A DNA stretch of 39,579 nt from Bacteroidota bacterium (GTDB lineage: Bacteria; Bacteroidota; Ignavibacteria; Kryptoniales; JAKASW01). The notes beneath the pieces were generated by a model. The model was not told where the DNA came from. It saw only the letters and a list, made by a program, of their open reading frames with translations, and searched no databases. Of the stretch, positions 9,086-39,579 are shown piece after piece. Location: positions 1-39,579 of the forward strand of contig JAKAMG010000027.1 in NCBI GenBank assembly GCA_021812985.1, written 5' to 3'. The stretch's first letter is position 1. The number at the start of each line of letters is the position of its first letter. The translations under genes and the position numbers were made by a program.

Positions 9086-9159
9086 TTCCCCTCCCAATGG
9101 CTGACAGTATTTCGTTTCATTAACCATCCAATGGAACCAACGGCGGACGCTCCGTCCAG

Positions 9160-9813
9160 TTAGAAAGATGCTCCGATTGATGCCCCTGCCCAAGGTCGAA
9201 AAGCGTGCGGCGTGAACAGAGGCGTGAAGCTCAGTCTGAAGAGTCCGAAGCCGAGCCAGGGTTGGAGTCGGTAGCCAATCGTCGCCGTCCCGACAACGTT
9301 GCTGTTCCCCCACCCCGCGCCTAGCACAGGCATCACCCCGACACCGAGCTCAAGGTGATCCGCACCGTTCCCCGCCAGGTAATCGATCACAATCGGGAAT
9401 GCAGTCAAATCGATCTTCACCAGCCCTCCCTGATCATTAACCCGCTCGAAGCCCACCCTGAGAAAATAGGACGGAGCGAGTTCACGTTCGTAGTTGAAAG
9501 AGTATAGAATCCCCTGACCGAGGATTTCGATGTATACCGCATTTTTGTCGTCGGGCGTAAACTGATGGCTCTCTGTATCAGGAACTGGAGGTGCAGCACC
9601 CGGCCTGAAGCACGCCGGTGCCGCGCCGCGGGCCGTGGACGGGATGCTCCATTCCCGATGAAACGTAATATCCTGATACTCACCGCAAGCCGTTGATGAG
9701 CGCCCTTCGCGAACGGCGAGCGGCGCCCGGTGCACGATCGTCTGGGCCAGCATTTTCACTGCGGGACAACAGAGCATATGCAACAGGAGAACTAACAGAC
9801 ACGGACTCTTCAT
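9160..9813 (-). CDS. Small outer-membrane beta-barrel-like secreted protein
   Basis: The start at 9813 gives a signal peptide (MKSPCLLVLLLHMLCC through KMLAQ) and is preceded by AGAGGA; an upstream in-frame ATG (9870) would put a polar tail before the signal. The mature part begins with a Pro/Ala-rich linker, then from about residue 95 alternating strands (VYIEILGQGILYSFNYER, YFLRVGFERV, HLELGVGVMP, ATIGYRL) and an ending in GASIGASF. This fits a small eight-strand-type barrel common in Bacteroidota. It ends 74 nt before the first radical-SAM gene in the same direction and may be the first gene of that operon. No family was recognised. Confidence 0.6.
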   Translation of the reverse strand: MKSPCLLVLLLHMLCCPAVKMLAQTIVHRAPLAVREGRSSTACGEYQDITFHREWSIPSTARGAAPACFRPGAAPPVPDTESHQFTPDDKNAVYIEILGQGILYSFNYERELAPSYFLRVGFERVNDQGGLVKIDLTAFPIVIDYLAGNGADHLELGVGVMPVLGAGWGNSNVVGTATIGYRLQPWLGFGLFRLSFTPLFTPHAFRPWAGASIGASF

Positions 9814-15855: not shown

Positions 15856-16563
15856 CTATCCATCCAAGGGAGTGTAAAACTCTGTGCTTAGTCTGTACCC
15901 TATCCCCGACTCAGTCATGATGACCTTCGGATCTGCCGGATCGTCTTCTATCTTCTTTCTGAGTTGTCCGACATACACCCTTGTATATTGAGATTCCTCC
16001 GAGAACGCCGGTCCCCAGACCTGTTCCAGTATGTACTTGTGAGTCAGGACCCGCCCTGCGTTCCTGACGAGAAGGGCGAGGAGCGCATACTCGGTGGCGG
16101 TCAGCTTAACGTATTCATTCCCCTTTTTCACAGTCCTGGCTGACAGGTCAATCCGAAGATTGCGGATCGAGAAAACGGGACTATCCTGAACCGACGGGCG
16201 ATGTCTGAGTGCGTTACGGACCCGGGCGAGGAGTTCACCTGTGCGGAAAGGTTTTGTAAGGTAGTCATCTGCCCCGGCATCAAGACAGGCAACTATATCG
16301 CTCTCGGAGCTGCGAACGGAAAGCACGAGGATTGGAACAGTTGACCACTCACGTATTTTTCTCAGCACATCGACGCCGTCGAGGTCAGGGAGACCGAGAT
16401 CGAGTATGATAAGCTCAGGCCGCACCGATGCCGCCCTGGCGACTCCTTCACTGCCGGAAACCGCTGAGCGGACAGCATAGCCGTTTGGCTCGAGGGTCAG
16501 TTCGAGGAGCCTGCGAATCTGCGCCTCGTCATCTATGATGAGTATAACGGGCGCGCTACTCAA
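15856..16563 (-). CDS. kdpE: KdpE, response regulator for potassium-limitation response
   Basis: The 235-residue protein has a receiver domain (about 1-120) with acidic pocket D11-D12, phospho-acceptor D55 in LIILDLGLPD, and the conserved Lys in LTKPF. An OmpR/PhoB winged helix follows (TATEYALLALLVRNAGRVLTH, then YVGQLRKKIEDD). The start is a TTG whose TTGA overlaps the stop of kdpD, with GAGG 10 nt upstream, so translation is coupled to the kinase. KdpE activates the kdp promoter when K+ is scarce or the cell is osmotically stressed. It is the last gene of the operon. Confidence 0.92.
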   Translation of the reverse strand: MSSAPVILIIDDEAQIRRLLELTLEPNGYAVRSAVSGSEGVARAASVRPELIILDLGLPDLDGVDVLRKIREWSTVPILVLSVRSSESDIVACLDAGADDYLTKPFRTGELLARVRNALRHRPSVQDSPVFSIRNLRIDLSARTVKKGNEYVKLTATEYALLALLVRNAGRVLTHKYILEQVWGPAFSEESQYTRVYVGQLRKKIEDDPADPKVIMTESGIGYRLSTEFYTPLDG

Positions 16564-19244: not shown

Positions 19245-19255
19245 CCGTGAATAAT

Positions 19256-19852
19256 TTAAGAGGTTTTTCTTCCAGTTACATGGAGCGTGTCCAGGGCGAT
19301 GTTGAGTAGCAGGACATTAACCCTCGGCTCCCCCAGCAAACCAAACTGCGGCCCGCGAACGCTCCTCCTGACAAGTTTGGCCAGTGCTTCCCTCCCGCGG
19401 GGTCCAAATCTCCGCGCCCTTGCAACCCTTTCAATCTGCAATTCAGCTCCCTCCGGGCTGATATCGGGGTCAAGGCCGCTCCCCGAGGCGTAAAGCATCT
19501 CCGCCGGAACAATAGCGTTCGAAGGAAGGCTGTTCAGCTGAATGAAATCGGCCCTACGCCGTTCGACAAGCGTTTTCAATGAATCGCTTGTCGGACCGTA
19601 GTTACTCGCGCCGGAGGGAAGGGCATTGTAATCTGTCGACGAGGGTCGCGACCAAAAATATCTGTCCCCCGTAAAATGCTGACCGATCAGTTTTGAGCCA
19701 ACAACGGAACCGTCAACTTTCACGAGGCTTCCATCAGCCCGCCCCGGGAAGATCAGTTGCGAGACCGCGGTAATGAAAAGCGGGTAGATAATTCCCGTCA
19801 CGAAGGTCATCGACAGAGTCAGGTATATCGCAGGCAGAATAGCTTTCTTCAT
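19256..19852 (-). CDS. kdpC: KdpC, K+-transporting ATPase accessory subunit
   Basis: The start is placed at MKKAILPAIYL (19852), which has GGAG 5 nt upstream; an earlier in-frame ATG (19876) adds eight residues without support. The 198-residue protein has one N-terminal membrane helix followed by a periplasmic domain with FTGDRYFWSRPSSTDYNALPSGASNYGPTS compressed into the familiar KdpC order: WSRPS, then SGASNxGPTS. The later SGSGLDPDISPEGA and Q-x-x-R-V-A-R-A-R are also typical. KdpC stabilises the KdpAB complex and helps nucleotide binding by KdpB. Confidence 0.93.
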   Translation of the reverse strand: MKKAILPAIYLTLSMTFVTGIIYPLFITAVSQLIFPGRADGSLVKVDGSVVGSKLIGQHFTGDRYFWSRPSSTDYNALPSGASNYGPTSDSLKTLVERRRADFIQLNSLPSNAIVPAEMLYASGSGLDPDISPEGAELQIERVARARRFGPRGREALAKLVRRSVRGPQFGLLGEPRVNVLLLNIALDTLHVTGRKTS

Positions 19853-19975
19853 ATCACTCCCAAAGCATGGATTCAACGAGGACGGGACTCCTCCCGCCGA
19901 AACAATTCCTCAAAGCGCTACAAGCGCTCGCGTTTTCATTCGGCCCCATTCGCCCTTTGCTTTTTGTCATTTGGG

Positions 19976-22084
19976 TCATACCAGCCTCAGTGCATTAACG
20001 AGTATATCGATGAGTTTGATTCCGATGAACGGGGCGATTATTCCACCAAGGCCATAGACGAGAAGGTTTCGCCTCAGCACGGCGCTCGCGCCGACCGGTC
20101 TGTACTTGACCCCCTTAAGAGCAAGCGGCACGAGAAGTATGATGATTATCGCGTTAAAGATTACCGCGCTCAGTATCGCGCTTTCGGGAGACCCGAGTTT
20201 CATTATGTTCAGCGCGGACAAAGGTCCGTACGGCTTGCCGAATGCGTAAAGCGCCCCCGTCATTGCGGGTATTATTGCGAAATACTTTGAGACATCGTTC
20301 GCGATGCTGAATGTTGTCAGCGCGCCGCGGGTCATGAGGAGCTTCTTGCCCGTCTCAACGACTTCGATCAGCTTGGTCGGGTTGCTGTCGAGATCGACCA
20401 TGTTTCCAGCTTCCCTGGCAGCCTGAGTTCCGCTGTTCATGGCAATGCCGACGTCGGCTTGCGCGAGAGCGGGCGCATCATTGGTCCCGTCTCCTATCAT
20501 ACCGACGAGATGTCCGCTCGCTTGTTCCTGGCGAATTCTGGCCAGCTTGTCCTCGGGTTTCGCCTCCGCTATGAAATCGTCCACGCCGGCCTCCGCGGCG
20601 ATAGCAGCTGCCGTAAGCGCATTGTCGCCGGTAATCATGACGGTTTTAATTCCCATCTTTCTAAGCTGTGCGAACCTTTCCTTAATCCCCCCCTTCACTA
20701 TGTCCTTCAACTGGACTATTCCGAGGACTTCGCCATTTTCCACGACCACGAGAGGCGTGGACCCCTGTCGTGCGATTTCTTCCAGGTTCTTCTGGACAGA
20801 CTGCGGAAACGTCTTCCCGATTTCAGTCACAAACTTCTTCATCGCCTCGCCAGATCCCTTTCGAATCGATCTCGGACCCAGCCCGTCCAACGCCGGTATT
20901 TCCACTCCGCTCATTTTTGTCTGAGCGGAAAATGGGATGAAGGTCGCGCCAACATCGCGCACTTCCTTAGCCCTCATGCCGTATCTTTCCTTGGCGAGGA
21001 TGACAATGGATCTTCCTTCGGGCGTCTCGTCGGCAATCGAAGAGAGCTGTGCCGCGTCCGCGAGGCGCTCGACAGGTATACCCGGCGCCGGAAGAAAATC
21101 ACTGGCCATTCTGTTGCCGAGGGTTATGGTTCCCGTTTTGTCCAGGAGGAGTACATCCACGTCGCCTGCCGCCTCGGCCGCGCGTCCGCTTGTCGCTATC
21201 ACATTCTTCCTAATTAACCGATCCATCCCGCTTATGCCGATGGCGCTTAGGAGCCCGCCGATGGTCGTCGGGATGAGACAGACCAGGAGTGAATCGAGTA
21301 TGGGAAGCGATACGTATTCATTCACCGAAATGCCGGACGCCTTCCCGCTGTAGTGCATGAAAGGAGGGAACGTCGCAACTGCAAGAAGAAACACGATCGT
21401 CAGCGCGGAAAGAAGTATCGTGAGAGCAATCTCGTTCGGGGTCTTCTGGCGCTTTGCCCCTTCGACCAGTGAAATGATCTTGTCCATGAACGTGGAACCC
21501 TGTTCAGCGATGATCCTTATGACAATTCTGTCGCTGAGCACTTTGGTACCTCCCGTGACAGCGTTCCTTTCTTCGCCGCTCTCGCGTATGACCGGAGCCG
21601 ATTCACCGGTGATCGCTGACTCGTCCACGCTGGCAATACCCTCAACGACCAGACCATCAGCCGGGATGACATCACCGGCTTCGCAGACCACGATGTCGTC
21701 TTTTGAAAGCTCGGTCGCCGGAACATTCACTTCTTTCCCGTTTTCAAGCTTGCGGGCGAACGTCTCCGCCCGCGCTTTGCGTAGCGCTTCGGCCTGAGCC
21801 TTTCCCCTCCCTTCGGCAATTGCCTCGGCGAAGTTTGCGAAGAGAACCGTGATCCACAGCCAGACAGTAATTTGGGCATCGAACGAGAGGGAGGAAGGTT
21901 GATGACCGATAGCCGATTGCGCGACGACGTAGGTGGAGACAACCGCCACTACCTCCACGACAAACATCACCGGGTTCTTTACCAGAGTCTTCGGATTGAG
22001 TTTCTTGAACGAATCGGCCAGCGCCTGAACGACTATGTTTCTATCGAATGCCGATGCTAATCCAACGCCTGATTTATTGTCCAT
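19976..22084 (-). CDS. kdpB: KdpB, P-type ATPase subunit of the K+ uptake system
   Basis: The 702-residue P-type ATPase has the phosphorylation motif DKTGT with catalytic D315. The actuator-domain TGES ends in S162, the same residue number as the inhibitory phosphoserine described for E. coli Kdp[20 protein letters not shown] and [28 protein letters not shown] form the nucleotide and phosphate-binding region. It hydrolyses ATP to drive K+ transport through KdpA. AAGGA lies 10 nt before the start. It is separated from kdpA by 228 nt, which is long for this operon, and from kdpC by about 120 nt. Confidence 0.96.
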
Positions 22085-22312
22085 CTTTCGTGTTCCTTGA
22101 AGGTACGTAATATTATCCGCGCCTCATTTTAGATTCCGACAACCATGTCCACGGTTTCCAAAGTGTTCGCATTGTTTATCAGCCGCGGGATGCATCCGCG
22201 TTTCTGCAACTTCCATTTTTTACTCAGGCCTAATTGTTGTAACGAACTCTTTCATCTGAGTCGATTGGGCTTTGCGTTCGCTTAGAATTCAGAATTCATT
22301 CATCAGGATTTC
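22085..22312. other. kdpA-kdpB spacer with a bulged palindrome
   Basis: This 228-nt gap inside the operon contains CGCGGGATGCATCCGCG (22184-22200), a palindrome centred on ATGCAT with one extra G, which could fold as a short hairpin. A 30-codon open frame (22124-22216, minus) has no ribosome binding site and is not called. I see no other feature. Confidence 0.4.
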
Positions 22313-24010
22313 CTAAAACGTTTTTCCGGCCAGCATCAGGAAATGCTCGACAATCGGACCGAGAGCGAGCGCTGGAAAAAATGTCAGCGCCGAAATAATG
22401 ATGATGATGCCGATAAGGAGGAAGCCGAAAAGCGGAGAATCCGTGGGGAAGGTGCCCGGGGAAGGTGGAATCGATTTTTTCCTCGCAAGACTCCCCGAAA
22501 TGGCAAGCACCGGAACTATCACAGAGTAACGCCCTATGACCATGCCAGCAGACTGAGAGAGGTTGTAGAACACCGTGTTTGTATTTAGCCCTGCGAACGC
22601 CGATCCGTTATTCGCCGCCGCGGAGGTGAAGGCATAGAGGATTTCGGAAAATCCATGCGGCCCGCTGTTGTTCAGCGATGAAATCCCTCCCCTTGTTATG
22701 ACTCCGATCGCCGTGAAGACGAGGATCGCGGCACTCGGTGCAACCACGCCTATCACTGCCATCTTCACCTCATACGCTTCGATCTTCTTCCCTAGATACT
22801 CCGGAGTCCTCCCGACCATCAGGCCTGCTATGAACACGGTGAGCAAAATGAAATGGAACATCCCGTACAGTCCTGCTCCGACGCCTCCGAAAATCACCTC
22901 GCCTGTCATCATGTTGACCAGCGCAACCATCCCGGAGAGAGGAGTCATGCTGTCATGCATTGCGTTGACAGAACCATTCGAGGCGGAAGTCGTCGCCACC
23001 TCCCATAGGACACTGTTTGTGATCCCGAACCTCGTCTCTTTCCCTTCCATCGTCGGAGTCGACGCGTACGCGGGATGGAATGTCCATTCTGAGTACAACG
23101 AGACGGAGAGCATGCTCACGAAAAGAACCAGCATGACGGACCAGATAACCAGCGCTTGTTTCATCGAGCCGATCAGCCTGCCGTAAGTATAAACGAGACC
23201 TGATGCGATAAGTAGTATGCTGAGCATTTCGAGGAAATCAGTCAGAGGCGTCGGATTCTCGAAGGGATGTGCGCCGTTCGCATTGAAGAAACCTCCGCCG
23301 TTGCTTCCGAGCTGCTTTATCGCAATTTGCGAGGCCGCAGGGCCGACCGGGATGACTTGTCCCTGCCCTGTGATTGCCTTCACCGTGTGATAATGCGTTA
23401 ACGTCTGAACGGTCCCCTGACCGACAAGAATGATTGCCAAAATGACGGACAACGGGAGAAGGATATATAGAGTGGTCCGCGTGACATCAACCCAGAAGTT
23501 GCCGATATCGTCGGTTGTCTTTCTAATGATTCCCCGGATGAAGGGGAGTATGACGACAATGCCGGTCGCGGCGCTCAGGAAGTTTTGCACGGTCAGTCCC
23601 ACCATCTGGACAAAGTTGCTCATAGTCGTCTCGCCGGCGTACGACTGCCAGTTCGTGTTCGTTACGAAACTGACCGCCGTGTTTATGGCGAGATCCCACG
23701 ACACTGCCGGGAGATGCTGTGGATTGAACGGAAGTATCTGCTGCACTTCCTGAAACAGCAACAGGAGAATAAAGCCCGCGAAGTTGAAGGCAAGAAGGGC
23801 GAACGTGTACTCTTTCCAATTCATCTCCTCGGCAGGGTTTATCCTGCAGACTCTGTATATCAACTCCTCGGTCTTACCGAGAAACGACTTCATGAAGTGC
23901 TTCTCCCCGGAAAACACTTTCGCCATAAAGCTCCCGATTATGGGAGTAAGGACGGCGAGTGAAAGGATGAATAGAGCTACCTGTAGAACATCGAGTGTGC
24001 CGAATTTCAC
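22313..24010 (-). CDS. kdpA: KdpA, potassium-translocating subunit
   Basis: The start is placed at GTG 24010 (VKFGTLDVLQVALF), one nucleotide after the kdpF stop and with GGAGA about 10 nt upstream. The ATG at 24070 would extend into kdpF. The 565-residue inner-membrane protein has about ten helices and the four selectivity-filter-like loops of the KdpA/superfamily of K+ transporters. Visible family segments are NTNWQSYAGE, GSNGGGFFNANGAHPFENPTP (read as two pieces, GSNGGGFFN and NPTPLTD), and SAAANNGSAFAGL. It binds K+ with high affinity, and KdpB drives it. Confidence 0.95.
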   Translation of the reverse strand: MKFGTLDVLQVALFILSLAVLTPIIGSFMAKVFSGEKHFMKSFLGKTEELIYRVCRINPAEEMNWKEYTFALLAFNFAGFILLLLFQEVQQILPFNPQHLPAVSWDLAINTAVSFVTNTNWQSYAGETTMSNFVQMVGLTVQNFLSAATGIVVILPFIRGIIRKTTDDIGNFWVDVTRTTLYILLPLSVILAIILVGQGTVQTLTHYHTVKAITGQGQVIPVGPAASQIAIKQLGSNGGGFFNANGAHPFENPTPLTDFLEMLSILLIASGLVYTYGRLIGSMKQALVIWSVMLVLFVSMLSVSLYSEWTFHPAYASTPTMEGKETRFGITNSVLWEVATTSASNGSVNAMHDSMTPLSGMVALVNMMTGEVIFGGVGAGLYGMFHFILLTVFIAGLMVGRTPEYLGKKIEAYEVKMAVIGVVAPSAAILVFTAIGVITRGGISSLNNSGPHGFSEILYAFTSAAANNGSAFAGLNTNTVFYNLSQSAGMVIGRYSVIVPVLAISGSLARKKSIPPSPGTFPTDSPLFGFLLIGIIIIISALTFFPALALGPIVEHFLMLAGKTF

Positions 24011-24011
24011 G

Positions 24012-24089
24012 TCAGAACTTCTCCGGCCGAATAAGCGTATATGACAAGTACACAAGTAGTGCGATTGCAATTATCAGTGCGACGACCAT
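24012..24089 (-). CDS. kdpF: KdpF, 25-residue Kdp complex peptide
   Basis: This micro-gene sits directly before kdpA, with one nucleotide between its stop and the kdpA GTG. It encodes 25 residues: a single hydrophobic helix (MVVALIIAIALLVYLSY) and the tail TLIRPEKF. The Y-x-L-x-R-P-E-K-F ending is the hallmark of KdpF, a small membrane subunit that stabilises KdpABC. The Shine-Dalgarno site is weak (AAGG at 12 nt). It is too short for usual gene finders, but its position and C-terminus make the call firm. Confidence 0.88.
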   Translation of the reverse strand: MVVALIIAIALLVYLSYTLIRPEKF

Positions 24090-27377: not shown

Positions 27378-28883
27378 TCATTTCAAGAGAAGAAGTTTTC
27401 TTACGGCGAAGTAGTTCCCAGCGTCAAGCCGGCAAAAATACAGTCCAGTCGGCAGTCTCGAACCGTCGAATCTGACCTCATAAGTTCCCGGCTTCTGGAT
27501 CTGGTCCACGAGAGTCACGACCTCTCTGCCGAGCACATCAAACACTTTCAGAGTGACATGTCCTGCGTCAGACATCCGGTAGGTGATAACCGTTGAGGGA
27601 TTGAACGGGTTCGGATAATTCTGGTACAGATCATAGCCCACGGGCATACTCCCTCTTTCCGCGATGGCGTCCACGGGTGTCGCATTTGCCTCCTGAAGAA
27701 AGTGATAGAGGTAGACAACTCCCAGATTCGCGTACCAGATGTTCCTTCTTCCGCTGATGTAATCAAGATGTCCATGGAGGTACCTTTTCCCGATATCGCT
27801 GAAAATTACCTGAGGGTGCCACATGAGATGATACACGCCTCCTTCTGAGACAATAAAATCGAAGAGACTGTCGAGTGACACGAGGCTCGTGTCTCCCCCG
27901 CCCCAAGAAGGCGCTCCAAGCTCGACGCTCGGGAGGAAAGGCTTGAAATGTCCCCTTGCGGCGTCCCACCCTGTCAGTGCTGAGGCGCCGTACACATATT
28001 CCCTTGGCGATGTCGTATCGAGATTGGCATACAATCTCGCGTCTAGATAACTGTAAGTGCCAAGCAAAGAGTCCACCATGTTGTCGTAATTTCCGTAGGG
28101 GGCAATCCAGGTGTAAACATATTCTCTTTGACCGGATCTGAATGGAGGTGGAAGAGTGACTGAATTCAGAATATCGTCTGCGGACCCGCCGATCTCTCCC
28201 TGTGGGTCTGCATACGGAGTCGCGGGATGCGTGCGGCTGTGGCTGGCAACCTCGATGTAACCTGAGTCGACCTCGGACTGGAGAGCCTGCCAGGTGGAGG
28301 CGGAAGAGCTGCCGGTGATTACTCCGACAGTAACGTAAAGTCCGTGTGACCGAAAAAGATGGAGTAGCGTGGTGAACCAGCCCGGCTGTACAACCCAATC
28401 CGACCAATCATCCGCCGACACGGTGACGACTCCCTGACGATTGTCGTAATACTTGCTTATGCCCTGAAAACCGGGAGTGACGGGGTTTCCCGATTCGTCG
28501 ACAATTCTGATGTAGAGGCTGTCGCTGTTGGACGGGAATGAGGCCGACACGTAGGCCATGTTGTCGGCATAGTCGAACCTAACGACCTCCGCCCCGTTGA
28601 ACGAATCGGTGTCACCTTTCGCCGGCAAAGGAATCCATGGAGATGAAATCGAATAGCGCTCATAAGCACTAAGCTTGGCCGAACCGGCCGGCAGACTCAG
28701 CTCGTAAGTCTCCGGATAGGCAAAGCCGTACTTCTGGTGAATGTCGTGCTGGATTACAATCGACAGGCCGGTGGTTGGCAAGTAGTGCAAGGTGAGCTTA
28801 CCCTCGTTCTGGCCAAACGCCAGATTCGCGAACACGATCACAAGTGCCGCTATAAATCCGCAGCGCGTGCATTTCAAACTCAT
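27378..28883 (-). CDS. T9SS-exported NodB-like polysaccharide deacetylase family protein
   Basis: The start at 28883 (MSLKCTRCGF) has a GGGGG-rich site about 9 nt upstream and a signal peptide ending near LAFGQ; the ATG at 28913 has none. Numbered from that longer frame, a beta-sandwich comes first (about 35-150). A NodB-like barrel follows (about 160-405), with VVTVSADDW (D168-D169), ASHSRTHP (H225, H229) and YTWIAPYGNYDN. These are the metal-binding Asp-His-His and the downstream segment of carbohydrate esterase family 4. The last 85 residues are a T9SS sorting domain: NYPNPFNPST, KVFDVLGREVVTLVD, LPTGLYFCRL and RKLLLLK. The target glycan is not known, and deacetylase activity is inferred. 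Confidence 0.75.
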   Translation of the reverse strand: MSLKCTRCGFIAALVIVFANLAFGQNEGKLTLHYLPTTGLSIVIQHDIHQKYGFAYPETYELSLPAGSAKLSAYERYSISSPWIPLPAKGDTDSFNGAEVVRFDYADNMAYVSASFPSNSDSLYIRIVDESGNPVTPGFQGISKYYDNRQGVVTVSADDWSDWVVQPGWFTTLLHLFRSHGLYVTVGVITGSSSASTWQALQSEVDSGYIEVASHSRTHPATPYADPQGEIGGSADDILNSVTLPPPFRSGQREYVYTWIAPYGNYDNMVDSLLGTYSYLDARLYANLDTTSPREYVYGASALTGWDAARGHFKPFLPSVELGAPSWGGGDTSLVSLDSLFDFIVSEGGVYHLMWHPQVIFSDIGKRYLHGHLDYISGRRNIWYANLGVVYLYHFLQEANATPVDAIAERGSMPVGYDLYQNYPNPFNPSTVITYRMSDAGHVTLKVFDVLGREVVTLVDQIQKPGTYEVRFDGSRLPTGLYFCRLDAGNYFAVRKLLLLK

Positions 28884-29205
28884 CGCGTCAATCCCCCCAT
28901 TACTGAACGGCATAAATGTTTAGTGGTCTCTGACATCAGACAGATAACATGGCACACCACCTCCACAAGTTCAACACGCTGGAAACGGGATGCCGGTTCA
29001 GGTGGCAAAGCCTCCGGAAGGTTTCGCGTCACCGTCCAACTCAGTCACCCCTAGAGGCCGCTTCTTTTCTCCCTTCTCGGTTGCGGCGAGTCAACCAAAG
29101 AGCGATAAGTTATTCTTATGATTGACATAGTAAATATAAATAATCATTTATGACCTAGCCTCCTTATCTTAACGTTGAAGAAATGAGAGACAAGCAAGCA
29201 ATCGA
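28884..29205. promoter_or_regulatory. Divergent promoter region upstream of dabB
   Basis: This 322-nt region separates the NodB-like gene (minus) from dabB (plus). Its plus-proximal end is sharply AT-rich. TTGACA (29122-29127) could be a -35 element, with CATTTA 17 nt on. TAAATAATCATTTA (29137-29150) is a 12-of-14 palindrome that may be an operator. Both are pattern calls with low certainty. Confidence 0.3.
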
Positions 29206-30843
29206 ATGTTGAACGAACTGAGAATACCAGAAATGGCCGACGCCAATTTCCTAACCTTGATCATCCTGACCGCCCCTGCCCTCTTTTTGTTAACATCAAT
29301 CATAGCGCGCTCTAAGCCCGGGACAAGACCACTTGCGGTAATAAGAGCAGGGATGGCGGCTACGGGAGCCAGCCTGATTGCCTCGGTCTACGGAATCATC
29401 GTGGTCTGTCTCTTCGGTTTGACCGAGGGGACAATTGTTGAAGTGTCGGGTATTGGGTTGTCGTTCCGGCTTGATCCGTTGAGCATGCTTATGTTCACTA
29501 TGATCGCCCTGCTCGGGTTCGTTGTACTGAAGTACAGTAGGAACTACCTGGACGGAGACGCGCGTCACGGAGTCTTTATTGGAAGATTGGCCAGCACGAT
29601 CGCAGCCGTCCAACTGTTGGTCCTATCAGGGAATCTTCTCGTTCTGTTTCTCGCCTGGATAATGACAAGCCTCATGCTTCACCGTCTGCTGATATTCTAT
29701 CCTGAACGCCGGCGTGCGGTCATCGCGGCGAGAAAGAAGTTCATCGTCGCGAGACTTGGAGACATATTCCTGCTGGCGGCCTCCGTTCTGATGTATATTC
29801 AGTACTCAACGGGGAATCTTCAGCTGATTTTTGACGCGTTGAAAGGAAGCAATCGTCCTCCGTACACGGTAGAGATTGCCGCGGTGTTTCTCGCGTTTGC
29901 CGCCCTCCTGAAGTCCGCCCAATTTCCCACGCATGGCTGGCTGATAGAGGTCATGGAAACCCCCACCCCTGTCTCGGCATTGCTCCATGCCGGCCTGTTG
30001 AACGCTGGGCCTTTCCTGATGGTTCGAATGGCCTATGTCATCAGTCGTGCCGAGGCAGCATCAATCGTTTTGATCGTTTTCGGCGGCCTGACCGCGCTCC
30101 TGGCCTCCATATCCTATACGACCCAGCCATCCATAAAGACCGCTCTGGGTTATTCAAGCGCCGCCCATATGGGTTTCATGCTGCTTGTATGCGGCATCGG
30201 GGTATTCCCGGCTGCAATGCTGCACCTCGTCGCCCACAGCTTCTATAAGGCACACGCCTTCCTGTCATCCGGTAGCGCGGTGGATATCAGACGAGCATCA
30301 AAGGTACCCGAGCCCAAACGTATCGGCAGTCCAATCAGGATCGTGGCGAGCGTTATAATCTCTTTTGTCGTGTACCTTGGTTTCGCAATGCTCTGGAGAA
30401 TCAATCCGGCCAACGACTTCGCGCTTTTGGCAACCGGTGCTATCGTGGTCATGGGTTTATCACAAATCATCGCTCCCGCGCTTGACTCGGACGGCTATTT
30501 TGCAACCACCCTGCGGGCGATATTGCTCACCCTGCTGGTGGCGGCATCTTTTTTCACACTCGAGAGTGTGTTCCATCACGTACTCTATTCGCAGCTGCCG
30601 CCACCCTCAAAACCGGACACTGCAACCATCCTTCTCACAGTCGCCGTGCTGATTGTCTTCGGACTGACCGTTCTCGCACAGATTTGGGCCCCGGCTGCGA
30701 AACAGAGTATCTTCCGGCAGAAAATTGGAGTACACTTTCGAAACGGGTTCTACATGAACGCGCTGTTTGATCGACTGACAGGAGCATTTTCAGTTTCCAG
30801 TCCAGCGAAAACCCGGAGACCTTTTGAATATCGGAGCAACTAA
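29206..30843 (+). CDS. dabB: DabB, membrane subunit of the DAB inorganic carbon transporter
   Basis: The 545-residue protein is a member of the complex I NuoL/MrpA antiporter-like family, with about 14 hydrophobic helices. It has the conserved LLKSAQFPTHGWLIEVMETPTPVSALLHAG region, read as KSAQFPTHGWL and TPTPVSALLHAG, which carries the proton-channel Lys and the helix-breaking Pro residues. It lacks the long lateral helix of true NuoL. The adjacent dabA gene identifies it as DabB, which supplies the ion gradient used by DabA to hydrate CO2 in one direction. No clear Shine-Dalgarno site precedes 29206; an ATG at 29233 is an alternative. It overlaps dabA by 20 nt. Confidence 0.88.
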   Translation: MLNELRIPEMADANFLTLIILTAPALFLLTSIIARSKPGTRPLAVIRAGMAATGASLIASVYGIIVVCLFGLTEGTIVEVSGIGLSFRLDPLSMLMFTMIALLGFVVLKYSRNYLDGDARHGVFIGRLASTIAAVQLLVLSGNLLVLFLAWIMTSLMLHRLLIFYPERRRAVIAARKKFIVARLGDIFLLAASVLMYIQYSTGNLQLIFDALKGSNRPPYTVEIAAVFLAFAALLKSAQFPTHGWLIEVMETPTPVSALLHAGLLNAGPFLMVRMAYVISRAEAASIVLIVFGGLTALLASISYTTQPSIKTALGYSSAAHMGFMLLVCGIGVFPAAMLHLVAHSFYKAHAFLSSGSAVDIRRASKVPEPKRIGSPIRIVASVIISFVVYLGFAMLWRINPANDFALLATGAIVVMGLSQIIAPALDSDGYFATTLRAILLTLLVAASFFTLESVFHHVLYSQLPPPSKPDTATILLTVAVLIVFGLTVLAQIWAPAAKQSIFRQKIGVHFRNGFYMNALFDRLTGAFSVSSPAKTRRPFEYRSN

Positions 30844-33397
30844 TACCGGCCAAGGACAAATGAAAACGAGCGACATGAATTTCAATTTTGACATCAGATC
30901 ACAAATGCAGAAGGCGTGCGGGAAGATAGCGCCGTTATGGTCATTGGAACATTTCGTAGCGGTGAATCCTTACTATGGTCTGAGCGATATGACTTTTGAA
31001 GAGGCCGCGATGCTCCTGTCGCGTACAGGCGGCGGAAAGATGACAATGCCGGTCTCCTTTTATCTGAATGCCATTGATGAAGGCATAATGACGAGAGAGG
31101 ATTTGAAAAGGGCCTTATCTACCGTCGACTCATTCGAAGATCCCGACGTGGACACTTTCCTGGACCAGATTAGACTGGAAGCCAGCGCTGACAACCAATC
31201 GAGAAGAGTGTCCATTGCAGCGGACGTTGCTTCTGAGCTTACTGGGACGGACTGGAGCAGTCTAATGCTGGAGCGCGTCACCTCCTGGGCTGCTCCATAC
31301 TTCGACAAGGGACAGGCTCTGTGGAGGACATCTCCATTGGAACAGGACATGTTCACGTCGTGGAAGATAGAGGCCTCCACAGACGCAACTCCATTGGTGA
31401 TGGGTTTGAAAGGCTTCCGGGAAGCGGTGAAAGGCTTGCCTGACGACCCCTTCGATGCTGCCGCAGAAAGCATTGAGTCCCTTGGCATTGCCACTGAAGT
31501 ACTTGAACTCTACCTGCACACTTTGCTGCAGCGGACCGGTGGCTGGTCTGCCTACGCCGCGGGTTTAGACTGGAACGAACGATTATACGGCGGAAAACCC
31601 GACAAATTATTGACCTTTCTTTCAATCTTGCTCAGCTGGGAACGCTGTTTGATTCAGTCACTGGCCGACAAGGGATTGAGTAACGCCTGGGATCACGAAG
31701 TAAAGAGTTGGCAGCAGCTCCAAAGGCAAGGGATGGACCGACAATTGCACGTTAAACTGATATTGCAGCAGGCTTTTGACAATGCCAACCAGAGGGAGTT
31801 GGTGGAGAAAATAAACGTAGCTTCAGACGATAGCTTGATCGACAAAGGCAATCCGCTGGCCCAGGCCGTCTTTTGCATTGATGTGCGCTCGGAGATTTTC
31901 CGAAGAAACCTGGAACATGTTTCTTCACAAGTGCGGACGATTGGCACCGCTGGTTTCTTCGGATTCCCACTTAAATATATTCCCATCGGGCATGAATCGG
32001 GCGAGGATCAATGTCCGGCGCTCATTCCCTCGAAGCATAATGTGCTGGAAATGATTCCTGAAAAAGAGGCCTATATCAAGGCCGTGAGAAAAAGGAAGAC
32101 ATCGCATCAGCTTGAGAAAGCCTGGAAATCATTCAAGCACGGCGCCGTCAGCTGTTTCAGCTTCATGGGCCCCGTCGGCCTGTCCTACCTTCCAAAGATT
32201 TACTCCGACACGTTCGGACTCACGCGACCTGTTCCTCACCCTGCAGTTGCAGGAATAGGAAAAAGGATGTTCAAGAACATCGACGTCGGCCTTGATGCCG
32301 CGAATCATGAAGGCCTCTCGGTAGGAATACCAATCGAGGAGCAGATAGAGATGGCGGCATCTGCGCTGAGAGCAATGTCTTTGACTGGCAACTTCTCACG
32401 CATCGTGCTCATCGTGGGACACGGCTCAACTTCCGTAAACAACCCTCACGCTACTGGCCTCGACTGCGGAGCATGCGGCGGACATTCCGGAGAACCAAAC
32501 GCGAGGGTGGCCGTTCGTGTTCTCAATACCCCCGACGTCAGGAAAGGACTGGAGCAGCGCGACATCTTCATTCCGCAGGACACCCTCTTTGTTGCGGCTC
32601 TCCATGATACTACAACGGATGAGGTGACATTGTTTGGGCAGAATCCGCTATCTGAAAGCCATCAAAAAGATATTGCCCAACTTAAGGAATGGCTCGCTCT
32701 TGCAGGCGAAGCATCGAGGAAAGAACGCGCAGCGCGATTGCCTGGTTCAGGCGGAAAGAAAGTTGACAGCGAGATATTCCTTCGAAGCAAGGATTGGTCT
32801 CAGGTGAGGCCCGAGTGGGGACTCGCAGGCTGCAGCACCTTTGTTGTGGCACCACGCAAAAGAACGGAAAAGATCAATTTCGTCGGCAAGTCATTCCTGC
32901 ATGACTACGATTGGAAATCCGATGAAAGATTTGGCGTTCTGGAATTGATAATGACAGCCCCGATGATCGTTACAAGCTGGATCAACCTGCAGTACTACGC
33001 CTCGGTCGTCGACAACAGGAACTATGGGGCAGGAAACAAAACTCTTCACAACATAACAGGCGGTATCGGTGTGCTCGAGGGCTATTCTGGAGATTTGCGA
33101 GCGGGATTGCCCTGGCAATCCGTGCACGACGGCCTTGAACTCCAGCACCTCCCTCACAGGCTCAATGTCGTGATTGAGGCTCCAATAGAAGCGATGGATG
33201 CAATTATCAAGAAGCATCCGCTAGTCAGGAATCTATGCGACAACCACTGGATTAAGCTCTTCGCGATGGACGGAAAAGGGCAAGTTGCTTTTGAGTACCT
33301 TGGGTACTTTCAGTGGAACCCAATTTACAAATCAGTAGAAGAATACCTAGACCAGGCGCCTGTCCCCATCGAAACTTCCGACGGAGAAGCTGCCTGA
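30824..33397 (+). CDS. dabA: DabA, zinc-dependent catalytic subunit of the DAB inorganic carbon transporter (DUF2309)
   Basis: The 857-residue protein is a beta-carbonic-anhydrase-like large subunit of the UPF0753/DUF2309 family. Zinc and catalytic residues are visible: C351 and D353 in FCIDVRSE, and H533 and C548 in VGHGSTSVNN and LDCGACGG. They match the Cys-Asp-His-Cys set described for DabA of Halothiobacillus. The start given is a TTG with GGAG 5 nt ahead that overlaps the end of dabB; an ATG at 30860 with a close AGGA is nearly as good. With DabB it pumps CO2 into the cytosol as bicarbonate using a cation gradient. In non-autotrophs this supports carboxylation at low CO2. Confidence 0.92.
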   Translation: MNIGATNTGQGQMKTSDMNFNFDIRSQMQKACGKIAPLWSLEHFVAVNPYYGLSDMTFEEAAMLLSRTGGGKMTMPVSFYLNAIDEGIMTREDLKRALSTVDSFEDPDVDTFLDQIRLEASADNQSRRVSIAADVASELTGTDWSSLMLERVTSWAAPYFDKGQALWRTSPLEQDMFTSWKIEASTDATPLVMGLKGFREAVKGLPDDPFDAAAESIESLGIATEVLELYLHTLLQRTGGWSAYAAGLDWNERLYGGKPDKLLTFLSILLSWERCLIQSLADKGLSNAWDHEVKSWQQLQRQGMDRQLHVKLILQQAFDNANQRELVEKINVASDDSLIDKGNPLAQAVFCIDVRSEIFRRNLEHVSSQVRTIGTAGFFGFPLKYIPIGHESGEDQCPALIPSKHNVLEMIPEKEAYIKAVRKRKTSHQLEKAWKSFKHGAVSCFSFMGPVGLSYLPKIYSDTFGLTRPVPHPAVAGIGKRMFKNIDVGLDAANHEGLSVGIPIEEQIEMAASALRAMSLTGNFSRIVLIVGHGSTSVNNPHATGLDCGACGGHSGEPNARVAVRVLNTPDVRKGLEQRDIFIPQDTLFVAALHDTTTDEVTLFGQNPLSESHQKDIAQLKEWLALAGEASRKERAARLPGSGGKKVDSEIFLRSKDWSQVRPEWGLAGCSTFVVAPRKRTEKINFVGKSFLHDYDWKSDERFGVLELIMTAPMIVTSWINLQYYASVVDNRNYGAGNKTLHNITGGIGVLEGYSGDLRAGLPWQSVHDGLELQHLPHRLNVVIEAPIEAMDAIIKKHPLVRNLCDNHWIKLFAMDGKGQVAFEYLGYFQWNPIYKSVEEYLDQAPVPIETSDGEAA

Positions 33398-34500: not shown

Positions 34501-37062
34501 CTATTTCATCAGGGTCATCTTCTTGACATCCGTGAATCCGCCTGCCTGCAATCGGTAGAAATAGAGACCGCTGGGGAGCATTGCCGCATTGAATACCGCC
34601 TGATACGAACCGGGTTGACGGTCCGCATCGACGAGCGTGACGACGCTCCGACCAAGTATATCATAGATTACAAGCGTTACGTGCGAAGCGCTGGGTACGT
34701 CGTACTCAATCGTAGTGGCAGGATTGAACGGGTTGGGGAAATTCTGCGCCAGCCCGAATGCTGTAGGCACCGAATTTTGATCCGATTTTACGCCCAGGAG
34801 GGTTAGGCTGACTTCGTTCGAATAAGCAGACATCACAACTAGATTATGACCTCTTACCCGGTAGAAGTAGACGTTGCCTGGGACGCCGGTTGTGTCAGTG
34901 AATAAGGCAGTGTTTGTCCCGACGGAATCAGTCACAGCATACGTACCGGAAGCTCCTGTCTTTCTTTCTATGTAATACCCTAGCTCACTTCCTGAATTGT
35001 CGTTCCATGTCAGCTTGACGTTCCCGCCCACAACTTGAGTCGCCGTCAGATTCGTCGGCGGTTTCATCGGGGTCACTGCGCTCGACATGTTCGAGTAACC
35101 CGAGTTCCCGCCAAGATTGGATGCGTACACGCGATAGAAATACATGCTTCCATCCACGAGCCCGCTGTCTGAATCGGATGTCGTGTTCGCCGGTAGATTA
35201 GCGACAGTGGACCACGAAGTCGTGTCAATGGTCCTCTGGATGCCGAACGAGGACTCATTATTTGAATTGTCGGTCCAGTTCAAATCGATGCGTCCGTAAT
35301 TGACGGTGGTGGCGGCGAGATTCGAGGGTGCTGCGGGGAGACTGACCGGAGTCGCCTTCACCGCACCGTTAACGAGCATCGCGCGCGGGCTCCCCTCGTT
35401 CAGGAGAAACTGCTGCAAAGTCAAATTTGAGACTCGCCCGGAGCTGACGTATGCCGGGACGAAGAAGCGGAGCTTGCACAGTATCCCAGGCGCGTTCAGG
35501 CTTGTCGTGCCAGCCCCGGCAAATATCACTTGCGTTCCGGAGATGTTAAAAGTGTACGTCCATCCATTGGTCAGCGAACCGGTCCCCACAATGCCGATGG
35601 GATGCACGACCGACGTGTCGAATGATACGGTCCCTTGACAGCTCAGTACCATCATCCCGGAGGTCATCGGGAATACATAAAGAGGGACATCCACGGTATC
35701 ACCGATCATTCCAACGGTGTCTGCAACCGACACCCGCGTGTCATAAATCTGTATAGTCCCCGAAGCGCCGCTACCACCGTAAGAATCGACCGCCTGCACA
35801 GTGATCGCGCCTCCTTTACGGGCCGTCAGGAGTCCTGTCTGGTCAATCGTGGCACGAGTCGAATCGCTTGTAGACCAGGTGTATGGCGGATTTCCGCCGG
35901 AGGCTGCGAGCCGCAGCGTGTCCCCGACCATGAGGTTCGCAGTTTTGGGTAAGATTGCCAGAGTCGATAGGTTTATCGTACGAAAATTGGCTGTCGCCGA
36001 GTCGCCCTGCAGGTTTTGATTGAAGACAATGTTTGCAGGGACGAGGCCTGTTGACCCCGTGTTTGTCCTTGACACTTTGAATTGCAGATAGACCAGGACA
36101 CCTTGCCCGCTCAGGGGAGAGGTGCCTGCGAATGAAAAACTGAGCACTCCGCTCCCGGAATTTCCGAGCGCCCCGTCTGGGTATGAGGCCATCATAGTAC
36201 CTGCCTGAGTGAATCCGATCGGAGAGAGAAGGTTTGGATTGAAATTAACCTGGAACGAGCCTGACGTAACGTTTAAGCCTGTCAGGTCGCTGGTATAAAC
36301 GGGAAGGCTGAACGTCTGCCCCTGCACATATGATGTATCATTTACGGTTAGCCGAAACGCCCGCACCTCAACCTGTCCGCTTGTGGTGTCAACAGTCCCG
36401 ACGGAGTCTACAGCTACAACCTTTGTGAACCCGGCATGTGTCGCCGTGAGGAGACCTGTCGAGTCTATCGTCGCTACTGCGGAATTCGTCAAGGACCAAT
36501 GATAGGGCGCAGTGCCGCTGTAGGCGGTGAACTTAACCTGGTCACCAACTGTAAGGAGTCCCCCGGTGGGGGAGATACTGATGCTCGGCTGAGCGAGAAT
36601 GCTAATCGAGCCATTTCTGAAAATCATCGACGGACTTCCCTCGTTGAAGTAGTTGGAAGCCGTTCCGCCGGAGAATGTCAGCGATACTCCACCCGAAGTC
36701 AGGAGTTTGAAGCGTACGTAGACCAGTATGCCGGTTCCAGAAAGGGGAGTAGTACCCGCGCAGGCAATCGTGACAATGCCCGGCGTGGACTTATTGAAAC
36801 TAAGGGATCCGAGTGACTGGCTCATGCTTCCCGCGGCGATCACGCTGTCAGCAATCATGTAGTAGGAACTATAACTGAGCTGGATCTGGTAGGAGGAAGC
36901 CCCCTTCCCTGTCAGGCTGCTGTCCACGAAAACCGGCACCGTCAGGAAGTTCCCTGTGGTGGCAGTTGTGTCATGTATCGAAAGACGGATTTGACCGTTG
37001 GCAGCGGAAGATACTAACGTCAACAGGAGGAGAATCGTCAGATACTTGAATGATCTAACCAT
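34501..37062 (-). CDS. T9SS-exported protein with three cohesin-like, two Ig-like (Big_2) and two fibronectin III domains
   Basis: The 853-residue protein has a signal peptide ending near SAANGQ, with AAAGGTG just before the ATG. Domains in order: cohesin-like 1 (about 25-155), Big_2-like (157-233, ending ATIDSTGLLTATHAG), cohesin-like 2 (237-370), Big_2-like (373-440, ATIDQTGLLTARKGG), cohesin-like 3 (442-570), FN3 (577-665, RIDLNWTDNS) and FN3 (668-755, VKLTWNDNS). A T9SS sorting domain closes it (770-853: NFPNPFNPAT, IYDILGRSVVTLVD, LPSGLYFYRL). Cohesin-like domains 1 and 3 share the ending F/L-N-E-G-S-P. No enzyme domain is seen, so it reads as a surface scaffold or adhesin. The neighbour 60 nt upstream bears a dockerin. 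Confidence 0.75.
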   Translation of the reverse strand: MVRSFKYLTILLLLTLVSSAANGQIRLSIHDTTATTGNFLTVPVFVDSSLTGKGASSYQIQLSYSSYYMIADSVIAAGSMSQSLGSLSFNKSTPGIVTIACAGTTPLSGTGILVYVRFKLLTSGGVSLTFSGGTASNYFNEGSPSMIFRNGSISILAQPSISISPTGGLLTVGDQVKFTAYSGTAPYHWSLTNSAVATIDSTGLLTATHAGFTKVVAVDSVGTVDTTSGQVEVRAFRLTVNDTSYVQGQTFSLPVYTSDLTGLNVTSGSFQVNFNPNLLSPIGFTQAGTMMASYPDGALGNSGSGVLSFSFAGTSPLSGQGVLVYLQFKVSRTNTGSTGLVPANIVFNQNLQGDSATANFRTINLSTLAILPKTANLMVGDTLRLAASGGNPPYTWSTSDSTRATIDQTGLLTARKGGAITVQAVDSYGGSGASGTIQIYDTRVSVADTVGMIGDTVDVPLYVFPMTSGMMVLSCQGTVSFDTSVVHPIGIVGTGSLTNGWTYTFNISGTQVIFAGAGTTSLNAPGILCKLRFFVPAYVSSGRVSNLTLQQFLLNEGSPRAMLVNGAVKATPVSLPAAPSNLAATTVNYGRIDLNWTDNSNNESSFGIQRTIDTTSWSTVANLPANTTSDSDSGLVDGSMYFYRVYASNLGGNSGYSNMSSAVTPMKPPTNLTATQVVGGNVKLTWNDNSGSELGYYIERKTGASGTYAVTDSVGTNTALFTDTTGVPGNVYFYRVRGHNLVVMSAYSNEVSLTLLGVKSDQNSVPTAFGLAQNFPNPFNPATTIEYDVPSASHVTLVIYDILGRSVVTLVDADRQPGSYQAVFNAAMLPSGLYFYRLQAGGFTDVKKMTLMK

Positions 37063-37085
37063 TAGACACCTTTGTTTTTTCAGGT

Positions 37086-37107
37086 GGGCGTGCCGCGAGG
37101 CACGCCC
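37086..37107 (-). repeat. Perfect 9-bp stem-loop between the two cohesin genes
   Basis: GGGCGTGCC (37086-37094) and GGCACGCCC (37099-37107) pair exactly around a 4-nt loop. It fills the 60-nt gap between the dockerin/cohesin gene and the three-cohesin gene. Minus-strand bases after it are A-rich, not T-rich, so it is not a standard terminator. Confidence 0.6.
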
Positions 37108-37122
37108 GGTTTCCGTGGTTGA

Positions 37123-39579
37123 TTACTTCAGTAATAAGAGTTTCTTCACCTGTGAGAATTTGCCGGCGGCAATCCTGTAGAAATAGACTCCGCTGCCCAC
37201 TCTCGTACCATTATTGTTTGTGCCATCCCACACGGCCTTATAGGAGCCGGCGTTCTGGCTGGCATCGACGAGCGTTTTCACGGCCTGTCCCATGATATTG
37301 TAAATTGTCAGCTGGACGTATGTGTTGTCGTCAGGCAGTTGGTACGCGATCGTCGTGCTCGGATTAAACGGGTTCGGATAGTTCTGATCCAGCTGATACG
37401 CGGTAGGTCTTCCGATCAGCTCTATCTCAGCCGGGTTCGCCAGCTTCGTCAGATCTGTTTCATTCGCGATGAACTTCGGGACGGTGATCTTCGACGTGAT
37501 GTTTCCGCGAATATCGTCGGCAGCCCTGAATGAGACAGACGCGATGTCGCCGTCGTTCCCCAGCATCTGGGCCCCCGCCATAGCGACCCTAAGCACACCG
37601 TTATGCTTGTCGTTAAAATAATCGACCTGCATACCGGACGCCGCGCCGGCGGTTTCAACGTTTTCGAAGCTGAGAACTTTCGGGTCATAATTCAACGTGA
37701 ACTGGACGGACGCAACTCCATTGACGTTGTCGAGTGTTATAGGCACGCTGAAAGAGTCACCGTGGGCCGCTGTCGTATTTCCGACCGCCATCTCAACCCC
37801 GGACACCTTCTGAAGGACAAACAGGTCCTTCGTGTGGTTGTCGATCTTCTTTGCCTTGGCGCCCACCTCGGCCGGAAAGCCTGAGATAAGATCAACCACA
37901 TACTGGAGTACAAGAGATGCGTCATAGGCCGTTATGCTTCCATTCCCGCTTACGTCAGCGACTGATTGCTGCAAGGCGTTAAGAGTGTCAGCGCCCGGGT
38001 TTACGACATATTTCAGTATAAGCGATGCGTCGTAGGCCTGGACAATCCCATTCAGGCTTACATCTCCCATGACGGGGGTGGAAGCGCCGGTAGTAAGGAA
38101 CGGTTGGTAGTTAACCGAATCTGTGATCGCCTGTCCCGATCCGCCGGGATTGCTCGTCGCTGTCGGTCCGGAGTTGTCTCCCCACCAGTTCCACCTTGCG
38201 TCTATCGTGAAAGATTTGTTTACGTTATTGACACCCTTCAGCGAGTTGGCATATATATCGCTGTAATTCACTACCGGATTCGAAGAGCCGTTGGCTGTGA
38301 TTCCGTTCGCGTTGTTCGTGATCGTCGAGTACGTCACAGTTGGGCTCGCATTGTTAGCTGTTATCGCGGAGCCGGAGTTTGAAAGGCCGGCGTACTTTAT
38401 AACACAGTGGCTGAATTGGCAAAGCGGATCAAGAGACTGGTCGGCAAATGTAATCCCGTTCCAACCAGGGTACCAGTACTGTGAATAAGTGAACGTCGTC
38501 GGGTTGGACGCTGTACTGTCTGAATTCGAATCGCCGCCGTAGAAATCGTCACGCAGGTCCGTGAAGACTATCGTGCTGTCAGGTCCGGGGCCACCGACAG
38601 CCATGAGGCCTTTGTTAACTGTCATGCCTGTACCGGGGAAGAATTTGACAATTACGCCCGGGGCGATAGTGAGTGTGGCATTGCTGGCTATTGTGTAGTT
38701 TTGGAACAAATACGGAATGTTGTTGTAGCCGGCAAAGTTCTTCTTTGATAGTGTCACGTCCTGGACCAGAGTCTCGTTAGCGAGGACGCCGATTGCCTTG
38801 TAAGTAGTCCCGCTTATAGAATCGCTGACTGTCGATCTCGGATAGGAAACGAGCGAGGTCTGCATCGGTGCGTAAGTCAGATTCCTGAACAGGCACGAAT
38901 CGAGTGCCGGCGTAGAAACGCCCGTCAGGTATACTCCCCAGTTCGTCCGGTCGAATGTACAATGCACGATTGTCGGCGCGGCCTGCTGTAGTGCAATCCC
39001 AACGTCGGTATATCTGAACATCGCGTACCTAACCACGCTGAGCGAATCTGTGCTCACGTCAGCGAACGTGACCCTGCTGCCGCTCGCAATGCTCGGCGCG
39101 GAAGCAGAGCCATCCTGGTTCGTATCGAACGGATTACCGTAATTATCATCCTCGATATCGGTAAACACGACCGGTTGGGATGCCGTACCGTTGACGGCAA
39201 GAGAACCGCCGACCTGCCAGTTCCCGCCCTTGAACACCAGGCCTGCGGGTATGGTAATCGTGGTACCCGTATTCACCGCGCATGTTCCAAAAAGGACGTA
39301 CGTGATGTTTGTGTACCCCGCGAAGTTCCGAATTGGCACCGTCGCATTGACAGAATAAGTCTCGGGAACTATGCCGAGCCCCATATCCCCGACGTTCAGC
39401 GATTTAATGTTAGTGAATGTCGGATTCGAGAAGAGGCTCATCGAGACGGGAGTCGAGCTGACGTTGATCATCTGAGTGTTCGAAACAACCGGATGGCCGC
39501 TTCCGAATACGCCGAACGCGGAGCTCGCAGACTGCTCGATTACAGAGGAATCCATGACCATGGCAGCATTGAAGTCTCG
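37123..39579 (-). CDS. T9SS-exported beta-helix protein with dockerin and cohesin-like domains, N-terminus beyond the window
   Basis: The frame stays open to the right edge (upstream codons read RDFNAA), so the N-terminus is missing. Residues are numbered from the first Met in the window. Two copies of a beta-helix-type module (about 65-250 and 258-490) share NFAGYxNI, then T-I-x-x-G/PG, then VVFTDIEDD or IVFTDLRDD and a D/N-rich loop. Next is a type I dockerin-like domain (499-557) with two Ca-binding loops: GDVSLNGIVQAYDAS and ADVSGNGSITAYDAS. A cohesin-like domain (about 589-715) follows, then the T9SS sorting domain (NYPNPFNPST, IYNIMGQAVKTLVD, KLLLLK). A dockerin and a cohesin on one chain suggest chain-to-chain docking. 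No catalytic residues are seen. Confidence 0.78.
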   Translation of the reverse strand, partial: RDFNAAMVMDSSVIEQSASSAFGVFGSGHPVVSNTQMINVSSTPVSMSLFSNPTFTNIKSLNVGDMGLGIVPETYSVNATVPIRNFAGYTNITYVLFGTCAVNTGTTITIPAGLVFKGGNWQVGGSLAVNGTASQPVVFTDIEDDNYGNPFDTNQDGSASAPSIASGSRVTFADVSTDSLSVVRYAMFRYTDVGIALQQAAPTIVHCTFDRTNWGVYLTGVSTPALDSCLFRNLTYAPMQTSLVSYPRSTVSDSISGTTYKAIGVLANETLVQDVTLSKKNFAGYNNIPYLFQNYTIASNATLTIAPGVIVKFFPGTGMTVNKGLMAVGGPGPDSTIVFTDLRDDFYGGDSNSDSTASNPTTFTYSQYWYPGWNGITFADQSLDPLCQFSHCVIKYAGLSNSGSAITANNASPTVTYSTITNNANGITANGSSNPVVNYSDIYANSLKGVNNVNKSFTIDARWNWWGDNSGPTATSNPGGSGQAITDSVNYQPFLTTGASTPVMGDVSLNGIVQAYDASLILKYVVNPGADTLNALQQSVADVSGNGSITAYDASLVLQYVVDLISGFPAEVGAKAKKIDNHTKDLFVLQKVSGVEMAVGNTTAAHGDSFSVPITLDNVNGVASVQFTLNYDPKVLSFENVETAGAASGMQVDYFNDKHNGVLRVAMAGAQMLGNDGDIASVSFRAADDIRGNITSKITVPKFIANETDLTKLANPAEIELIGRPTAYQLDQNYPNPFNPSTTIAYQLPDDNTYVQLTIYNIMGQAVKTLVDASQNAGSYKAVWDGTNNNGTRVGSGVYFYRIAAGKFSQVKKLLLLK

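Follow-up and report, generated by a model that had tools for sequence, protein, structure and literature searches.

A conserved gene pair in Bacteroidota encoding a trivalent cohesin scaffold and a beta-helix dockerin-cohesin protein, both ending in T9SS sorting domains

The window analyzed here (39,579 nucleotides) is the whole of contig C7 of a 3.5-Mb Bacteroidota genome that is 98.95% complete. Two neighboring genes lie at its end on the minus strand, P0001 (34501-37062) and, upstream of it across a gap of 60 bp, P0002 (37123-39579), which is cut by the contig end. By searching the genome with an orthologue, the missing N-terminus of P0002 (963 residues) was located on contig C21, whose end shares an exact overlap of 127 bp with that of C7. 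The joined P0002 has 1,781 aa and begins MRRWSVTAFILFLLGGIAYSQ, a hydrophobic start that by eye looks like a signal peptide. The features of the pair, in the direction of transcription, are the following.

37123-39579, minus strand: P0002, C-terminal 818 aa of a beta-helix/dockerin/cohesin protein that continues on contig C21
38092-39579, minus strand: P0002 right-handed beta-helix region, C-terminal part (PF13229, 1.9e-11)
37897-38067, minus strand: P0002 type I dockerin, aa 499-555 of the in-window ORF (PF00404 above cut-off; aligns to 4uyp_B)
37798-37896, minus strand: P0002 dockerin-cohesin linker, two short helices predicted (AlphaFold2 model)
37444-37797, minus strand: P0002 cohesin, aa 589-706 (PF00963, 2.9e-19; VIA-align to 3ul4_A)
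37135-37380, minus strand: P0002 T9SS type A sorting domain, aa 728-809 (Pfam, NCBIfam)
37086-37107, minus strand: hairpin GGGCGTGCC-TCGC-GGCACGCCC, without U-tract, in the 60-bp intergenic gap (gap sequence)
34501-37062, minus strand: P0001, trivalent cohesin scaffold, 853 aa (translation, Pfam)
36604-36984, minus strand: P0001 cohesin 1, aa 27-153 (local HMM, 4e-22; AlphaFold2; VIA-align Z 17.4 to 6kgc_A)
36367-36585, minus strand: P0001 Big_2 Ig-like spacer 1, about aa 160-232 (Pfam; AlphaFold2 strands)
35989-36351, minus strand: P0001 cohesin 2, aa 238-358 (PF00963, 42.2 bits in the genome-wide search; local HMM)
35746-35976, minus strand: P0001 Big_2 Ig-like spacer 2, about aa 363-439 (Pfam; VIA-align)
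35359-35733, minus strand: P0001 cohesin 3, aa 444-568 (local HMM; VIA-align Z 17.6 to 5nrm_A)
34798-35331, minus strand: P0001 two fn3 domains, about aa 578-755 (Pfam)
34516-34740, minus strand: P0001 T9SS type A sorting domain, aa 775-849 (PF18962, 7.7e-9; TIGR04183, 1.4e-9)

The whole 60-bp gap folds at -24.5 kcal/mol, and a scan for promoters and terminators gave nothing above chance. Strong hairpins without a U-tract were also seen in the corresponding gap at L044, L045, L047, L049, L051, L155, and L164, i.e., within the genus of the window and at a few loci beyond it, with a sequence that differs from locus to locus; they may adjust how strongly the second gene is expressed or shield RNA ends. 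The rest of the window (transport, radical-SAM, and kdp genes, others, and two more secreted-looking proteins) shows no link to docking. Three radical-SAM proteins follow one another at 5062-9313, two of them resembling heme-biosynthesis and peptide-maturase types, with none above the NCBIfam cut-off among the matches listed. KdpA, KdpB, and KdpD genes (potassium pump and sensor) lie at 16560-24070, and at 29206-33397 a DabA inorganic carbon transporter adjoins a proton-antiporter-M protein that is probably its DabB partner. The polysaccharide deacetylase encoded at 27378-28913 carries a T9SS sorting domain and is likely an additional surface protein.

The Pfam content of P0001, which starts with a hydrophobic stretch resembling, by eye, a signal peptide, amounts to three cohesins, two Big_2 domains, two fn3 domains, and Por_Secre_tail, so that the three cohesins with Ig-like spacers read by the first-pass annotation are borne out by matches to Cohesin (E 2.5e-21 for the whole protein, 76.8 bits against a cut-off of 24.1) and Big_2. 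The second spacer superimposes on the Big_2 domain of 7r3t_B (VIA-align Z 12.6, 1.2 Å over 75 residues). AlphaFold2 modeled the trivalent region with a pLDDT of 93.0 and a pTM of 0.57, and it is predicted to form well-folded beads on a string with flexible joints.

The in-window part of P0002 contains two Beta_helix stretches, Dockerin_1, Cohesin, and Por_Secre_tail, while in the part encoded on C21 Beta_helix is the sole Pfam match above cut-off. The searches with cohesin and dockerin profiles that had been proposed matched both families above their cut-offs, with Pfam values in P0002 of 6.4e-18 for Cohesin, far above the family cut-off, and 4.6e-8 for Dockerin_1 (33.6 against 22.9). All cohesins were assigned to the type I-like family PF00963 by a profile match above the curated cut-off together with the AlphaFold2 fold, and those of both proteins match type I cohesins from solved complexes with VIA-align Z of 17-18 (for P0002, 18.3 to 3ul4_A, 1.7 Å over 127 residues). 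A type I dockerin (PF00404) is defined by two F-hand loops with D at position 1, S, N, or D at positions 3 and 5, and D at position 12, a pattern found in both loops of P0002, DVSLNGIVQAYD and DVSGNGSITAYD. These are intact, and the domain aligns to the crystallized ScaB dockerin 4uyp_B; its fold was judged by sequence alone, the VIA-align matches listed for this part of P0002 being to cohesins. Thus, the type I-like dockerin with two intact calcium loops and a cohesin of its own described earlier for P0002 is upheld, as are the sorting domains that end both proteins, found by Por_Secre_tail and by NCBIfam TIGR04183 (T9SS type A sorting domain), above cut-off in each.

The dockerin, linker, and cohesin of P0002, modeled with AlphaFold2 from 38 sequences, reached a pLDDT of 93.6 and a pTM of 0.89. 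Since we estimate a pTM near 0.6 for a freely moving dockerin (cohesin alone), the two domains probably form one rigid unit in the predicted structure. With such packing in cis, the dockerin could already be occupied, and dockerin and cohesin might be docked on each other within the chain, either to make a structural unit or to hold a closed state that opens upon secretion. The high score of the two-domain unit, the confident linker helices, and a linker length that is similar across the class all favor this, but it leaves unexplained why a separate protein with three cohesins is so strictly paired with P0002 (see below), and we judge it improbable.

The beta-helix N-terminus on C21 has no solved relative in the PDB by sequence at E 0.01. 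The beta-helix fold is found in many polysaccharide lyases, and for this reason the beta-helix region may still be enzymatic. Nevertheless, no catalytic or carbohydrate-binding domain was detected by Pfam in P0001 or in P0002, including its C21 part, and among the orthologues scanned (five upstream proteins and three related scaffolds) no glycoside hydrolase or CBM family reached its cut-off. The earlier remark that no catalytic domain is visible therefore holds for both proteins and extends to the full-length orthologues scanned.

Genome-wide, Pfam Cohesin matched P0001 and P0002 only (four cohesins), and Dockerin_1 gave one full copy, that of P0002, plus two weak partial matches below cut-off. 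The latter (PF00404, E 0.01 and 0.26) had marked proteins on contigs C56 and C26 as candidates for second dockerin proteins; they were missed by the family-specific dockerin profile, which in this genome matched the P0002 dockerin only, and were also unsupported by the local profile on the fetched loci. The search for other dockerin proteins elsewhere in the genome, suggested along with the original reading, thus returned no further full dockerin. As in a cellulosome, a multivalent cohesin scaffoldin is present (three cohesins in P0001). Several dockerin-bearing enzymes are not, there being one dockerin protein without a catalytic Pfam domain, nor is there a CBM on the scaffoldin, whose matches above cut-off are Cohesin, Big_2, fn3, and the sorting domain. 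The single dockerin in the genome and the lack of a detected enzyme domain led us to reject a cellulosome, and the “cellulosome-like” label, with no catalytic or CBM domain found and one dockerin for four cohesins, was not supported. By the genome counts of dockerins and cohesins, the system is a non-cellulosomal cohesin-dockerin one. A degradative complex whose enzymes were missed could be imagined by reference to “Ca. Stygibacter,” reported with dockerin-bearing enzymes and a scaffoldin (PMC8542988); we give this reading very little credence, with one dockerin in a nearly complete genome and the defining enzymes absent.

To what extent the two genes belong together was apparent from other genomes. 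In a first survey of 61 related genomes, Cohesin and Dockerin_1 matches were often close together, with 27 of 42 dockerin matches having a cohesin within about 6 kb (counted by eye). We then searched with two profiles, A1 for the trivalent unit and A2 for the dockerin-cohesin unit. Across the class (197 genomes), every full trivalent match (E < 1e-110; 26/26) lay directly downstream of a strong dockerin-cohesin match on the same strand. A sample of the phylum (395 genomes) added 12 loci, of which one belongs to the class and the other 11 come from ten genomes that do not, all with a dockerin match directly upstream on the same strand. In total, all 38 Coh-Big2-Coh-Big2-Coh loci, from 30 genomes, have a dockerin protein directly upstream on the same strand, and the median intergenic gap is 43 bp (39 fetched pairs). 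The pair is patchily distributed, being present in only some members of the genus of the window and twice in some genomes, and the flanking ORFs vary between loci (by eye). The E-values and the conserved synteny exclude chance for the domain calls, and P0001/P0002 is a conserved two-gene module.

The orthologous upstream proteins are mostly 1,750-1,960 aa long, and scans of five of them turned up beta-helix repeats, dockerin, cohesin, and sorting domain and nothing else. Downstream orthologues retain the N-terminal Coh-Big2-Coh-Big2-Coh unit within a total length of about 660 to 2,400 aa, and the domains that follow it are of the fn3, DUF1573/HYDIN-like, or He_PIG/cadherin-like kinds. DUF4350 is matched in one scaffold, L057; in a second one, L049, the similarity to phosphatase families is confined to their N-terminal Ig-like domains and does not reach the catalytic parts. 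Three strong dockerin-cohesin matches in the class stand alone, without a trivalent neighbor. The proteins L171, L172, and L173 (2,409-3,440 aa) have the same dockerin-cohesin C-terminus with no trivalent gene adjoining, and are possible extra clients of the scaffold. Other pairs of a dockerin gene followed by a cohesin gene, with different architectures, occur in the same class (L051, L052, L053, L059, and L063), which suggests a wider group of such pairs. In another lineage (G049), a three-cohesin protein at L058:148-2511 has no adjoining dockerin protein; a repeat at its own C-terminus, DTDGSGVIDVTDRANTWN, looks like an unusual dockerin.

Among the modules of the pair, the dockerin is the most conserved (mean pairwise identity of 60%, 38 sequences), and the cohesin beside it is the least (22%, same number of sequences), with the scaffold cohesins at 30-35% (25 loci common to both alignments). 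The calcium ligands of loop 1 are retained in nearly all 38 dockerins. In loop 2, D stands at position 12 in 38/38 and D or N at position 1 in 37/38, but position 5 is neither N nor D in 12/38, which could leave some orthologues with one weak calcium site. Positions 10 and 11 of the loops carry specificity in clostridial dockerins, and in loop 1 they are an A-Y or A-F pair in 36 of the 38. The two halves of the dockerin are 57% identical to each other, compared to 9% for shuffles; in type I dockerins already known, internal symmetry of this kind accompanies a dual binding mode (PMC12484212). The pairwise divergences of dockerin and trivalent scaffold are correlated (r 0.83), which may come from shared ancestry alone.

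This pattern of constraint bears on two further readings. Cohesin-like modules do occur without known dockerin partners, e.g., in TMEM132 (PMC6030884), and the modules could thus be parts of a stalk, with the cohesins as Ig-like spacers and no docking. Such a pure spacer role fits poorly with how strongly the dockerin is constrained. Although a dockerin would serve no evident purpose as a spacer, it is the module kept best, calcium residues and internal symmetry included, and it is always next door to the trivalent unit; we regard the stalk reading as very unlikely. Alternatively, the dockerin of one P0002 could bind the cohesin of the next, giving head-to-tail fibers for which P0001 would be the branching node or cell anchor. 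Most P0002 orthologues carry both halves, and no other full dockerin was found in the genome, as such self-assembly would have it. However, the P0002 cohesin, given its low identity and its degenerate state in several orthologues from outside the class, is a poor fit for the contact that a polymer requires, and the AlphaFold2 model is rigid in cis. We consider self-assembly unlikely, if less so than a stalk.

We regard as probable that the two genes form a module whose products build a non-enzymatic surface assembly, in which P0002 docks on P0001. From the sequences we infer cohesin-dockerin docking between the two, its stoichiometry, the surface location, and an adhesive role. The N-terminal signals would take both proteins across the inner membrane, and the T9SS, whose involvement is suggested by the sorting domains and by the SprA that the genome encodes (SprA_N, 9.6e-42, in a frame of 2,340 aa), would take them across the outer membrane. 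There, P0001 would display its three cohesins with the Big_2 domains between them. The P0002 dockerin, near the C-terminus of a long beta-helix protein, would plug into the P0001 cohesins in a calcium-dependent manner, and each scaffold could display up to three beta-helix rods. The P0002 cohesin, rigidly packed on the dockerin in the predicted model, might stabilize it as X modules do in clostridia, or might instead accept another dockerin. What results would most likely be a surface layer with an adhesive or structural function rather than a machine for degradation. The plan of a T9SS-exported cohesin-dockerin assembly, proposed at the outset, is thus consistent with the profiles, the predicted folds, the intact dockerin, the pairing at 38 loci, and SprA. 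The other proposal made there, an unrelated adhesion system, comes nearer than a cellulosome but is incomplete, since “unrelated” does not apply to docking modules that are genuine type I cohesin and dockerin homologues. More tentatively, this may be a dedicated, patchily distributed Bacteroidota two-gene system in which docking mounts giant beta-helix rods on the trivalent scaffold exported by the T9SS and so builds a purely structural surface lattice or fiber, an idea that we hold possible rather than probable. If the lattice reading is true, the product of cohesin-dockerin interaction would here be a surface structure and not an enzyme complex. As the pair is fixed at 38 loci, it is clear beforehand which proteins to test against each other for binding. 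Docking, if true, would link cohesin-dockerin interaction to T9SS surface display, and the pair offers compact docking modules for engineering.

A literature search, with incomplete coverage of subscription journals, found no description of this pair. Cohesin-dockerin modules outside cellulosomes have been on record since 1999, for the most part as scattered genes with no known purpose. With T9SS type A cargo the pair shares the sorting domains present in both P0001 and P0002; the T9SS cargo known so far usually consists of enzymes or adhesins that lack docking modules. The best solved match to the P0002 dockerin (9.5e-14) is in the ScaB dockerin/ScaC cohesin complex of Acetivibrio cellulolyticus (4UYP, 4UYQ), in which the dockerin joins one scaffoldin to a cell-surface scaffoldin, although ScaB/ScaC belongs to a true cellulosome with many enzymes. 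“Ca. Stygibacter” (Cloacimonadota) is reported to have dockerin-bearing GH18, GH57, and peptidases and a scaffoldin whose C-terminal domain serves surface attachment (PMC8542988). The likeness lies in a tandem-cohesin, scaffoldin-like protein with a C-terminal surface-attachment domain and in dockerin proteins, but there it is glycoside hydrolases and peptidases that bear the dockerins, and CBM2/CBM3 are present on the scaffold; neither was found in our pair. ANME archaea and their sulfate-reducing partners have non-cellulosomal cohesin/dockerin proteins with a proposed role in adhesion (PMC9012536, PMC10553843); their architectures are different, and a Coh-Big2-Coh-Big2-Coh protein paired with a beta-helix protein is not described there. 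The closest experimental precedent is in Archaeoglobus fulgidus, where AF2375 (dockerin) and AF2376 (cohesin) bind strongly (PMC9705933). These are likewise adjacent, by their ORF numbers, and non-cellulosomal, with dockerin and cohesin on separate proteins, and the structure of the Archaeoglobus cohesin (2xdh) matches the cohesins of both P0002 and P0001. However, the Archaeoglobus pair is archaeal and has no T9SS, and the AF2376 fragment used is a single cohesin, whereas in the pair described here the scaffold is trivalent, has Big_2 spacers, and is partnered by a beta-helix protein.
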